64,000 nt of DNA from Planctomycetota bacterium (lineage in GTDB: Bacteria > Planctomycetota > Phycisphaerae > Phycisphaerales > UBA5793): positions 1 to 64,000 of the forward strand of contig CAUJHZ010000074.1 in assembly GCA_963205185.1 (NCBI GenBank), in the 5' to 3' direction. Below, piece after piece: positions 42,524-46,320 of this stretch. The stretch's first letter is position 1, and each line of letters opens with the position of its first letter. The translations under genes and the position numbers were made by a program. Below the pieces are notes generated by a model. The model was not told the origin of the DNA, ran no database searches, and worked only from the letters and a program-made list of their open reading frames with translations.

Positions 42524-43090
42524 ATGAGCACACTGTCTCCGCGGGCGCTGGCGTCGCTGCAGGCCTACCGGCTCATGCTCTTCTCCCGCGCCGTGCATCC
42601 GGAGTTCTTTGAGATCCGCAAGCGCCGCGCCAGCCGCTCTCACCAGTATGAACTCGACACCTGGCTGGCGCGGGGCGCGCACGTCATCACCTTCACGCAC
42701 GGCGGCGAGCACATCGTCGAAGTACTCACGCCCAACGAGCCCGCCGTGCCCCGGCGCGGCGTGGTCGAGTCGCTGCCCTGCGCGGGCGAGCGCGAGCACG
42801 AATCGCGCTTCGGCGGGCGGCTGAACTACATCACCAGCGTGCAGACCGAGATCGTGTCCGAGAACCTCTATCGCGCGACGCTGCGCGAGATGCACGAGCA
42901 CGCGGTGGAGAACAAGTCGCTCATGCACCGCTGGCGCGAGGACGACAGCCGCACCGACAGTCTCTCCGTGCTTGACGTGCAGTGCTACCCGTGGGAGGTG
43001 CACGCCCAGGCCTGGCACCTCGACGCCGGCTGCGGCCTGGTCCTGCGCTCGCAGGCGATCTTCGAGGTGCTGGCCCAGACGGACGAGTGA
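42524..43090 (+). CDS. DUF2617-like protein
   Basis: The 188-aa protein contains YRLMLFSRAVHPEFFEI and HVITFTHGGEHIVEVLT, then VVESLPCAGEREHE. This order (HPE-FE, then a T-GGH strand, then a charged ERE segment) resembles the DUF2617 family, found mainly in planctomycetes and of unknown role. ATG 42524 follows AAGGAG at good spacing, so the start is secure; the long upstream frame is not protein-like. It precedes the ileS leader on the same strand. Read-through into ileS is possible because no terminator separates them before the attenuator. Confidence 0.7.
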   Translation: MSTLSPRALASLQAYRLMLFSRAVHPEFFEIRKRRASRSHQYELDTWLARGAHVITFTHGGEHIVEVLTPNEPAVPRRGVVESLPCAGEREHESRFGGRLNYITSVQTEIVSENLYRATLREMHEHAVENKSLMHRWREDDSRTDSLSVLDVQCYPWEVHAQAWHLDAGCGLVLRSQAIFEVLAQTDE

Positions 43091-43117: not shown

Positions 43118-43145
43118 TTGATCCTCTTGCGCCGATGAGTACACT
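43118..43145 (+). promoter_or_regulatory. possible promoter for the ileS leader transcript
   Basis: TTGATC (43118-43123) and TACACT (43140-43145) are spaced by 16 bases. The predicted start falls near 43152, only a few bases before the leader ATG at 43155. The leader peptide would then be translated from a leaderless or nearly leaderless mRNA, which fits the absence of a Shine-Dalgarno sequence there. Confidence 0.5.
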
Positions 43146-43154
43146 CGATCGACC

Positions 43155-43211
43155 ATGAAGCCCCTGACCGCCGCCATCTCGATTCGCATCAGCATTACCA
43201 AGCCCCACTGA
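43155..43211 (+). CDS. Ile-rich leader peptide upstream of ileS
   Basis: The 18-codon frame encodes MKPLTAAISIRISITKPH. Four isoleucine codons (43176 ATC, 43182 ATT, 43188 ATC, 43194 ATT) occupy every second position. That is four in 18 codons, in front of the gene for the enzyme that charges tRNA-Ile. It is too short to be a functional protein and sits in an otherwise gene-free 266-bp gap. The stop codon (43209-43211) directly abuts the second strand of the regulatory RNA. Read with the downstream stems it is best explained as an attenuator control peptide: slow decoding of Ile codons would change RNA folding. Confidence 0.75.
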   Translation: MKPLTAAISIRISITKPH

Positions 43212-43286
43212 GGCGGCGGGGAATCGGCGCGGCTCTGGCGAGCACCAGCAACAACCGATTTCAGGCCCCGCCTCCGGTGGGGCCTG
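43168..43286 (+). promoter_or_regulatory. candidate isoleucine attenuator of ileS (competing RNA stems)
   Basis: Segment 1 is CCGCCGCC (43168-43175), just before the Ile codons. Segment 2 is GGCGGCGG (43212-43219), just after the leader stop, and pairs perfectly with segment 1. An overlapping part of segment 2 (43215-43227) pairs over 13 bp with segment 3 (43255-43260 plus 43266-43272, one 5-base bulge). Segment 3 also forms the left arm of the hairpin 43262-43286 with segment 4. So 1:2 and 3:4 can coexist, while 2:3 excludes both. A ribosome stalled on Ile codons covers segment 1 and allows 2:3, giving read-through into ileS. A ribosome at the stop codon covers segment 2 and allows 3:4, giving termination. 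Confidence 0.72.
43262..43286 (+). terminator. attenuator terminator hairpin of the ileS leader
   Basis: An 11-bp stem (43262-43272 with 43276-43286, one G-U pair) closes a 3-base loop TCC. It is followed by TTGCGTTGG, a weak U tract. It lies 70 bases before ATG 43357. Confidence 0.65.
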
Positions 43287-43356
43287 TTGCGTTGGTCCGG
43301 TAGACTTGCACCCACGAGTTGACCGCCTGCGGTCGCTTTTTCGAGAGAATCCAGCC

Positions 43357-46320
43357 ATGAGCAGCGAATCGTCCAGTCCCGCTTCCACCCAGGCCCAGGG
43401 CGACAAACCGTCCTACAAGCAGACGCTCAATCTGCCTAAGACGGCATTTCCGATGCGGGCCAACCTGGTCCAGAACGAACCCGCCAGCATGAAGCGGTGG
43501 GACGGCATGCGCCTCTACGACACCCTGCGGCAGTTGTCCGCAGACGAAAGGCGCGACCTCTGGTCCTTCCACGACGGCCCGCCGTACGCCAACGGCTCGA
43601 TCCACCTCGGCCACCTGCTCAACAAGGTGCTCAAGGACTTCGTCGTTCGCACCCGCACGATGCAGGGGCTCGACGTGCCGTACGTGCCCGGCTGGGACTG
43701 CCACGGCCTGCCCATCGAGCACAAGGTGATGACCGAACTCGTCGAGTCGGGCAAGGCCGCCAAACTCGACACGCTCAGCGATGATGATCGGCGCATGGCG
43801 GTGCGGCGCGAGTGCCGCAAGTACGCCGAGAAGTTCATCAAACTGCAGACGGGGCAGATGAGGCAGCTTCTGACCGTTGCGGACTATGACCATCCGTATC
43901 TGACCATGCAGCCCGAGTATGAGGCGGCGACGCTCGAAGTGTTTGCGAACCTCGTCGAGCACGGCCTGGTGTACCGGGCGCTCAAGCCGGTGCACTGGTC
44001 GATCGCGAACCAGACGGCGCTGGCCGAGGCTGAACTGGAGTATTACGACCGGCAGGACCTGTCGGTGTACGTGTGGTTCGAGGTTGAAGATGTGGCGGCC
44101 CTGCTCAAGGCGTTCGGGCTGGCCGGCAAGGATCCGAAGGAGTTCGCCGACCTCAAGCCGTCGCTGATGATCTGGACCACGACGCCGTGGACGCTGCCGG
44201 CGAATCTCGCAGTGGCGGTGCATCCGCGTTACGAATACGTGCTGGCGATGATGGGCGGCCGGCCGACGGTGATCGCGGCGGAGTTGTACGCAAAAGTGAA
44301 ATCGCTGCGCGAGAAGAGCAGCGCGCACGGCGCCGCTGAACTGGGCCGCTGCAAGGGCGCGGACCTGCTCGGCCTCACGTATCGCCATCCGTTCTGCAAT
44401 CGCGTTTCGCCGGTGGTTTCCGCCGAATACGTCACGCTCGAAGACGGCACGGGCCTGGTGCACACGGCGCCAGGACACGGAGCCGAGGACTTCCAGACGG
44501 GTCACGCCAACGGGCTCGACATCTACTGCCCCGTGCGCGCTGACGGCACCTACGACGACACCGTGCCGGATTGGCTCCGCGGCATGGACATCTGGAAAGC
44601 GAACGAGGTGATCGCGAAACGGCTTGAAGACGATGGCGCGATGTACTTCTCGCACACGTTCACCCACTCTTATCCGCACGACTGGCGCGGCAAGACGCCG
44701 GTGATCTTCCGCGCGACGGAGCAGTGGTTTGCGGCCGTTGATAAGCCCCGCGCCGGCGATCTCGATCTGCGCACGCTGGCGCTGGATCAGACGCGCGATG
44801 ATGTGAAGTTCTACCCGGAGTGGGGCCGCAACCGTATGCGCGGCATGCTCGAAAGCCGGCCGGACTGGTGCCTGAGCCGCCAGCGCGCGTGGGGTCTGCC
44901 GATCCCGGCTTTCTTCGACGCCGACGGCAATTACCTGCTGACCAGGCGCACCGTCATGTGCGTGGCCGAGAAAGTGCGAGTCAAGGGCAGCGATGCGTGG
45001 TTCACAATGAGCCCGGCGCAGTTGCTCGAAGGCTACGACGCCGCGAGCGATCCCGATGCGCCTGATTCCTTCAAAGCCCAGGCTTGGCAAAGCGTGGGCC
45101 CTGAGAGTCTGCGCAAGAGCAGCGACATCTTCGACGTGTGGTTCGAATCCGGCTGCTCCTGGCACGCAGTCATGGACCAGCGCGGCCAGGCGGATCTCGC
45201 GAACGGCAAACCCGTCGAACTCTACCTCGAAGGCTCTGACCAGCACCGCGGCTGGTTCCAGGTGTCGCTGCTCACCGCTCTGGGCGCCACGGGGCGCGCG
45301 CCCTTCAAAGCCCTGCTCACGCACGGCTTCACCGTTGACAAAGACGGCAAAAAGATGAGCAAGAGCCTGGGCAACACGATCGAAGTCGAAGACCTGCTCA
45401 AGAAGTACGGCGCCGACGTGTGCCGCTGGTGGGTGGCGTCGATCAACTTCGAGGGCGACATCAAGGTCGATTACTCGCTCTTTGACGTGGCCGGCGAGTC
45501 GTACCGCAAGGTGCGCAATACGCTGCGCTTCCTGCTGAGCAATCTCGACGACTACACGCCCCTTGACCAGCGCGAGACGATGCCCGGCGCCAGTCTCGAT
45601 GCGTGGGTGCTCGGTGAGTACAACCGCGTGTCGCAAGAGGTGCGCGCTGCATACGACCGCTACGACTTCCGCGCGGCTCACAGCACTCTGTACGACTTCT
45701 GCAATGACACGCTCAGCGCCGTCTATCTCGCCGCGACCAAGGATCGGCTCTATTGCGACCGGCCCGACAGCATGCGCCGGCGGCGAACGCAGCGGGCGAT
45801 GTGGGAACTGTGCGACGGGTTGTGCAGGCTGCTGGCGCCGATCCTGCCGCACACGGCTGACGAGGCGTACCGCTCGCTGTGGAAAGTGGATGCAAAGGAC
45901 ACATCGCGCTGCGTGCAGTTGACGACGTACCTCGATGCGATTGACGTTTCGGCGGACGCGGCGTGGACGAAGGTCATGGCTGCGCGCGAGGCGTCGCAGC
46001 AGACGCTCGAAGCGGCGCGGGCGGCGCAGGTGATCGAGAACCCGCTCGACGCCGAGGTGCATGTGCAAGACGCAGACGGCGCCCTGGCGGCGTTCGCCAC
46101 CCGCTTTGCCGACGCGACGGGCGACTCCTTCGAGGCTGAATTCGCGGACCTGCTGGGCGTGAGCCGCGTGAAGTTCGTGGGTCCGGGCGCCGCGCGCGTC
46201 GTCGCGCTCGCCGACGAGCCTCGCTGCGAGCGCAGCTGGAAGCGCGATGGAACCGTGAAGCAGCGAAGCGACGGCGGCTGGCTGACGGACCGCGACGCCC
46301 AGGCCGTTGGCGTGGCGTAG
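43357..46320 (+). CDS. ileS: isoleucyl-tRNA synthetase
   Basis: IleRS charges tRNA-Ile and edits valine. The 987-aa protein has the class I signatures GPPYANGSIHLGH (HLGH at 83-86) and KMSKS (666-670), an editing domain with WTTTPWTLPANLA, and an anticodon-binding domain with GWFQVS before it. At the C-terminus, where bacterial IleRS often has a four-cysteine zinc finger, only CERSWKRDG remains, with Arg and Ser replacing most cysteines; the finger is degenerate. ATG 43357 is chosen because the upstream frame has no family match; GAGAGA precedes it. Expression is probably set by the leader at 43155-43286. Confidence 0.97.
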   Translation: MSSESSSPASTQAQGDKPSYKQTLNLPKTAFPMRANLVQNEPASMKRWDGMRLYDTLRQLSADERRDLWSFHDGPPYANGSIHLGHLLNKVLKDFVVRTRTMQGLDVPYVPGWDCHGLPIEHKVMTELVESGKAAKLDTLSDDDRRMAVRRECRKYAEKFIKLQTGQMRQLLTVADYDHPYLTMQPEYEAATLEVFANLVEHGLVYRALKPVHWSIANQTALAEAELEYYDRQDLSVYVWFEVEDVAALLKAFGLAGKDPKEFADLKPSLMIWTTTPWTLPANLAVAVHPRYEYVLAMMGGRPTVIAAELYAKVKSLREKSSAHGAAELGRCKGADLLGLTYRHPFCNRVSPVVSAEYVTLEDGTGLVHTAPGHGAEDFQTGHANGLDIYCPVRADGTYDDTVPDWLRGMDIWKANEVIAKRLEDDGAMYFSHTFTHSYPHDWRGKTPVIFRATEQWFAAVDKPRAGDLDLRTLALDQTRDDVKFYPEWGRNRMRGMLESRPDWCLSRQRAWGLPIPAFFDADGNYLLTRRTVMCVAEKVRVKGSDAWFTMSPAQLLEGYDAASDPDAPDSFKAQAWQSVGPESLRKSSDIFDVWFESGCSWHAVMDQRGQADLANGKPVELYLEGSDQHRGWFQVSLLTALGATGRAPFKALLTHGFTVDKDGKKMSKSLGNTIEVEDLLKKYGADVCRWWVASINFEGDIKVDYSLFDVAGESYRKVRNTLRFLLSNLDDYTPLDQRETMPGASLDAWVLGEYNRVSQEVRAAYDRYDFRAAHSTLYDFCNDTLSAVYLAATKDRLYCDRPDSMRRRRTQRAMWELCDGLCRLLAPILPHTADEAYRSLWKVDAKDTSRCVQLTTYLDAIDVSADAAWTKVMAAREASQQTLEAARAAQVIENPLDAEVHVQDADGALAAFATRFADATGDSFEAEFADLLGVSRVKFVGPGAARVVALADEPRCERSWKRDGTVKQRSDGGWLTDRDAQAVGVA

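Follow-up and report, generated by a model that had tools for sequence, protein, structure and literature searches.

Candidate leaderless isoleucine-codon attenuator upstream of ileS in Phycisphaerae

In the trp, his, ilv and pheST attenuators of Proteobacteria, a leader peptide carries regulatory codons; a ribosome that stalls at these codons frees an antiterminator, and a ribosome that finishes the leader leads to formation of the terminator. T-box riboswitches bind tRNA directly, unlike leader-peptide attenuators. Among aminoacyl-tRNA synthetase genes, attenuators have been predicted for leuS and trpS in Streptomyces, T-boxes of ileS are found in Actinobacteria (PMC1262725), and leader peptides of hisS/hisZ are known from bacilli (PMC2965389). 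A small ORF upstream of ileS in Caulobacter, the 'ileS leader CDS' CCNA_03934, is mentioned as a negative control (PMC4117421). Leaders that are themselves leaderless have also been described: trpL of Sinorhizobium meliloti is leaderless, its attenuator RNA starting at the ATG (PMC7298713), and a title in the references of PMC10272879 (Morbach 2000) reports that the leader of Corynebacterium glutamicum ilvBNC is also leaderless.

Here we describe a locus, within a 64,000-nucleotide stretch of planctomycete DNA (the window), that by its anatomy belongs with the classical leader-peptide transcription attenuators and contains a short ORF with a run of codons cognate to the controlled gene. From its sequence and that of related loci, we consider it very likely that ileS is under ribosome-mediated transcription attenuation sensing charged tRNA-Ile. 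The ileS ORF (43357–46320, + strand, as are the other parts of the locus given below) encodes isoleucyl-tRNA synthetase, homologues of which were found in all 61 genomes of our order-level set. Its start lies 145 bases 3' of a leader ORF of 18 codons, predicted to be leaderless (43155–43211; MKPLTAAISIRISITKPH, then stop), in which 4 of the 18 codons specify isoleucine. These putative regulatory codons are numbers 8, 10, 12 and 14 (ATC, ATT, ATC and ATT; 43176–43196), and a letter-by-letter re-reading found the frame and its Ile positions to be exactly as given in the preliminary description of the locus. At least three Ile codons within eight occur in only 2 of 253 small ORFs of the window (ATG start, 10–40 codons, both strands), and 43155–43211 is the only one of those two that lies upstream of ileS.

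For comparison within the genus we used four congeneric genomes (G001–G004), which together with the window genome (G000) make up five congeners. All five share the hexamer TTGATC (43118–43123) and, after a 16-nt spacer, the hexamer TACACT (43140–43145), which ends 9 nt 5' of the leader ATG; we interpret them as a putative -35 and -10 element, respectively. Across a wider set of 24 leader loci, a good -10 hexamer was present 6–12 nt 5' of the ATG in 19 leaders, compared with 6 of 97 control ATGs taken from the same regions. A -10 box at this distance would place the transcription start at the ATG or within a few bases of it, and the leader is probably read as a leaderless mRNA. This conserved, apparently leaderless arrangement accounts for the lack of a ribosome binding site, which had earlier been named as a weak point with the remark that the leader may be leaderless. 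No conserved -35/-10 pair at proper spacing that could represent a second promoter was seen by eye within 43286–43357. The valS gene of the window genus (L189–L193) also seems to be leaderless: in the congeners, TACAAT precedes its ATG at a distance of about 8 nt. Leaderless mRNAs could therefore be frequent in the genus.

The leader and the RNA that follows it contain a set of competing pairing segments. Segment 1 (CCGCCGCC, 43168–43175) is the exact complement of 43212–43219, with which it is predicted to pair when no ribosome is present. Segment 2 (43210–43227), identified by folding and by its complementarity to the terminator arm, begins within the leader stop codon and forms the 5' strand of the antiterminator; segment 3 (43255–43274), identified by folding, forms its 3' strand and contains the 5' arm of the terminator. 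The predicted terminator hairpin 3:4 (CAGGCCCCGCC-TCC-GGTGGGGCCTG, 43262–43286, -22.6 kcal/mol) has an 11-bp stem, including one G-U pair, and a TCC loop. The complementarity of segment 1 and the coordinates of the hairpin had been described correctly. The 13 bp reported between 43215–43227 (GGCGGGGAATCGG) and 43255–43260 (CCGATT) plus 43266–43272 (CCCCGCC) are likewise present, except that what had been called one bulge is an interruption of 5 nt (43261–43265). The antiterminator also extends further than earlier described. It begins at 43210, and in the fold with the ribosome at Ile8 its outer part is formed by GCCCCAC at the end of the leader (43202–43208; invariant in the five congeners), which can take up the terminator 3' arm (43277–43283) as well. 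This pairing may explain why the last codons of the leader (-PH) are fixed. As a plain fold the RNA of 43152–43300 is not exceptional (z = -1.09), because GC-rich shuffles fold nearly as well, and the evidence is comparative.

The RNA ahead of the ribosome was folded for each ribosome position, with the front edge placed 12 nt beyond the A-site codon's start and folds taken at equilibrium. In the window, the probability of the terminator was about 0 with the ribosome at codons 3–13 and 0.92–0.99 from codon 14 to the stop, so that with this +12 edge the terminator is already allowed when the ribosome is at codon 14, the last one for Ile; the turning point moved by one or two codons for edges from +9 to +16. 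With no ribosome on the RNA the probability was 0.94, the terminator being kept because segment 1 then holds segment 2. Antiterminator and terminator are mutually exclusive in the computed folds and are chosen by ribosome position, in agreement with the earlier proposal that a stalled and a finished ribosome would select opposite folds (about 0 at codons 3–13, at least 0.9 at the stop). Over the 24 loci, the terminator had a median probability of 0.00 with the ribosome at the middle Ile codon and of 0.96 with the ribosome at the stop. The difference between the two exceeded 0.5 at 15 loci; shuffling the RNA between ribosome and terminator gave 0.6 such loci on average and never more than 4. 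The other nine showed no equilibrium switch above 0.5; several of them have terminators more stable than the antiterminator, and with such very stable terminators only a kinetic lead of the 2:3 pairing could work. These tests were run without L086 and L094, which have Ile leaders and terminators that were not confidently assigned, and without L037, which has an unusual leader end.

We propose that the transcript begins at the leader ATG or immediately beside it, and that a ribosome directly behind RNA polymerase translates this leaderless mRNA. With ample Ile-tRNA, the ribosome would reach the stop codon and cover segment 2 with its front edge, so that hairpin 3:4 would form and transcription would end before ileS. 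Under a shortage of Ile-tRNA, the ribosome would wait at Ile codons 8–12, segment 2 and the leader end would capture both terminator arms, and RNA polymerase would continue into ileS, yielding more synthetase. If the leader is not translated at all, segment 1 would hold segment 2 and the terminator would form.

Conservation within the genus follows the parts of this device. The leader peptides of G001–G004 are MKPLTAAISIRIGITMPH, MKPLTAAISIRIGITTPH, MSGRRSPISIQIIITSPH and MTSRRSPISISIIITAPH; length, start, stop and frame are as in the window in all four. Isoleucine is invariant at codons 8, 10, 12 and 14, with ATC/ATT swaps at several of the Ile codons, and codons 2–7, 11, 13 and 16 vary. TTGATC, TACACT, the terminator stem and the block GCCCCACTGAGGCG, which surrounds the stop codon, show little or no change. 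In the inner antiterminator both strands change and the pairing stays (GGAATCGG/CCGATTTC in the window, CTGGGATC/GATTCCAG in G002 and G004); segment 1 is only partly kept in these two genomes. As the five sequences are close, covariation within the genus is limited. The preliminary description had made its proposal depend on the Ile codons and the competing stems being preserved in close relatives, and the alignment shows both. This bears on the idea that the hairpin is merely the terminator of the upstream gene, which is encoded on the same strand and ends at 43090, 171 bases 5' of the hairpin, and that the Ile-rich frame is a chance ORF. We regard this as very improbable, given that the leader frame, its Ile codons and the competing stems persist in all congeners, that the switch is not reproduced by shuffles and that Ile leaders are again seen upstream of ileS in other families; the comparative data already contradict it.

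Candidate leaders were found well beyond the genus. G005, from another genus of the same family, carries the leader MRWRVATAWHWIIPIGITRPL, followed by a stop codon. Among 93 distant loci, 13 have a small ORF with an ATG start and at least three Ile codons within eight, no more than 350 nt upstream of ileS. The expectation was 2.1 ± 1.2 (maximum 6) in dinucleotide shuffles, and the reverse strand gave 3; when all 20 amino acids were tested alike, only Ile showed an enrichment of this kind before ileS. After further genomes were added, a reading of the list by eye gave about 27 convincing Ile leaders in 151 non-redundant related loci, among them MQRHRINIIGIIIIDPNRR, MTHAQPTIIAIIISDPDQR, MKPQILIIAEIIIISTA and MTTARQAIIIWIAKPR. 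The candidates in L018, L077 and L080 were judged likely to be due to chance. The leaders span several families of Phycisphaerae and three metagenome-assembled genomes (MAGs) deposited as Acidobacteriota. No leader could be detected before many related ileS genes, and its distribution over the IleS tree, though clustered, is patchy (9 changes vs 17.8 in shuffles).

Most of these loci have, directly 3' of the leader stop, a short G-rich segment that complements the 5' arm of a GC-rich hairpin, as in TGA-GGGCGAGG with CCTCGCCC or TAG-GGCAGG with CCTGCC; at many of them the hairpin runs into a U tract. The sequences of segment 2 and of the arm differ from family to family, but their complementarity stays. 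In 18 representatives, segment 2 paired with its own arm at a mean of -22.6 kcal/mol and with the arms of other species at -18.3 kcal/mol (permutation p = 5e-5, the lowest value this test can give). Compared with shuffled segment-2 sequences, the combined p was 5e-8 over the 24 loci, a set that includes the five congeners as non-independent members. The product of the small ORF could instead be functional in itself, as a small protein or as an arrest peptide whose amino-acid sequence does the sensing, and the conservation of the ORF in frame within the genus would fit such a role. However, the peptides differ freely between families except in their Ile-rich runs and in the GC-rich end that also serves the antiterminator, and we give this explanation hardly any weight compared with sensing at the Ile codons.

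The step at which the predicted switch acts deserves separate consideration. The hairpin of the window genus is followed by TTGCGTTGG, and the poor U tract noted earlier at this position is real. Shortly before ileS, a scan revealed a second small, terminator-like hairpin (43320–43335) followed by CTTTTT, with a stem largely kept in the congeners. The stretch between terminator and ileS that contains it (43296–43341; CCGGTAGACTTGC...GAGTTGACCG-N4-CGGTCGC-TTTTT) is nearly invariant in the five congeners. The same stalled-ribosome switch at Ile codons could thus have an output other than intrinsic termination at 43286, either through a pause or Rho-linked site or with the second hairpin setting translation, and both the poor U tract and this second conserved hairpin with its T tract, 22 nt before ileS, would be in line with it. 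Against this, the homologous hairpins of many loci in other families have proper U tracts, the first hairpin is 70 nt from the ileS start and so too far to hide the ileS ribosome binding site, and there is no competition between the second hairpin and the stems of the leader. We consider such an alternative output improbable, and intrinsic termination at the first hairpin remains our preferred reading.

We also looked at the supply of branched-chain amino acids. No ilvC or ilvD above the cut-off was detected in G000–G004 or G005, with 14 of 14 control genomes positive, and no ilvB above the cut-off in the five congeners, so the window genus looks unable to make branched-chain amino acids and dependent on their import. 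In addition, ilvC was missing from all sampled genomes of family f2. A link between the presence of the leader and the loss of isoleucine synthesis was rejected, because ilvC is retained in genomes of families f5 and f6 that bear the leader. No Val or Leu leaders were seen before valS and leuS in the window genus, which indicates that the device is not used there for every branched-chain synthetase.

Regarding the MAGs deposited as Acidobacteriota, the IleS proteins of four of them (L051, L059, L065 and L031), including the three with Ile leaders, form a supported clade inside the IleS of Phycisphaerae. This suggests either that ileS was transferred together with its attenuator or that the MAGs are misnamed. 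Separately, the congener G004 appears to be the public MAG titled 'Vicinamibacteraceae bacterium PLA1' (Acidobacteriota; L002, WYBR01000008.1), a title that looks wrong, as the other close relatives are Phycisphaerales. On balance we lean slightly towards the view that the leaderless Ile-codon attenuator is an old and widespread ileS control module in Phycisphaerae, which also passed into some Acidobacteriota along with a Phycisphaerae-type ileS. It would also reveal tight coupling of transcription and translation, because the attenuator needs a ribosome close behind RNA polymerase; if true, such coupling would hold for that part of Planctomycetota. In a lineage seemingly unable to make isoleucine, the leader would moreover provide a natural reporter of tRNA-Ile charging.

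How does this locus compare with the systems described so far? The mechanism is known. For its target gene and phylum, we found no description of an ileS attenuator in Planctomycetes in the open literature, the 2010 survey of aminoacyl-tRNA synthetase attenuators lying outside our coverage, and we do not claim priority. A T-box riboswitch, which would show a stem I with specifier codon and a T-box antiterminator, was rejected as a candidate: Rfam gave no match to a T-box or known attenuator in the window, nor in 20 related loci without a leader match. The ileS T-boxes of Firmicutes and Actinobacteria nevertheless serve the same gene and respond to the same signal, the charging of tRNA-Ile. The resemblance to Caulobacter CCNA_03934 lies in the mapped position of a small ORF upstream of ileS (PMC4117421). 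S. meliloti trpL and, going by its cited title, C. glutamicum ilvBNC share the lack of an upstream ribosome binding site and differ in amino acid and operon. The predicted leuS and trpS attenuators of Streptomyces and the hisS/hisZ leaders of bacilli are also cases of synthetase attenuation by the gene's own cognate codons, in other synthetases and other phyla. With the locus described here, leader-peptide attenuation would come to include Planctomycetota and ileS, a gene that is mostly treated as a T-box case. It resembles the trp, his, ilv and pheST attenuators in its regulatory-codon leader and in the opposite effects predicted for a stalled and a finished ribosome; unlike them, it combines ileS with Ile codons, has an apparently leaderless ORF, and carries a leader end that can also capture the terminator 3' arm.
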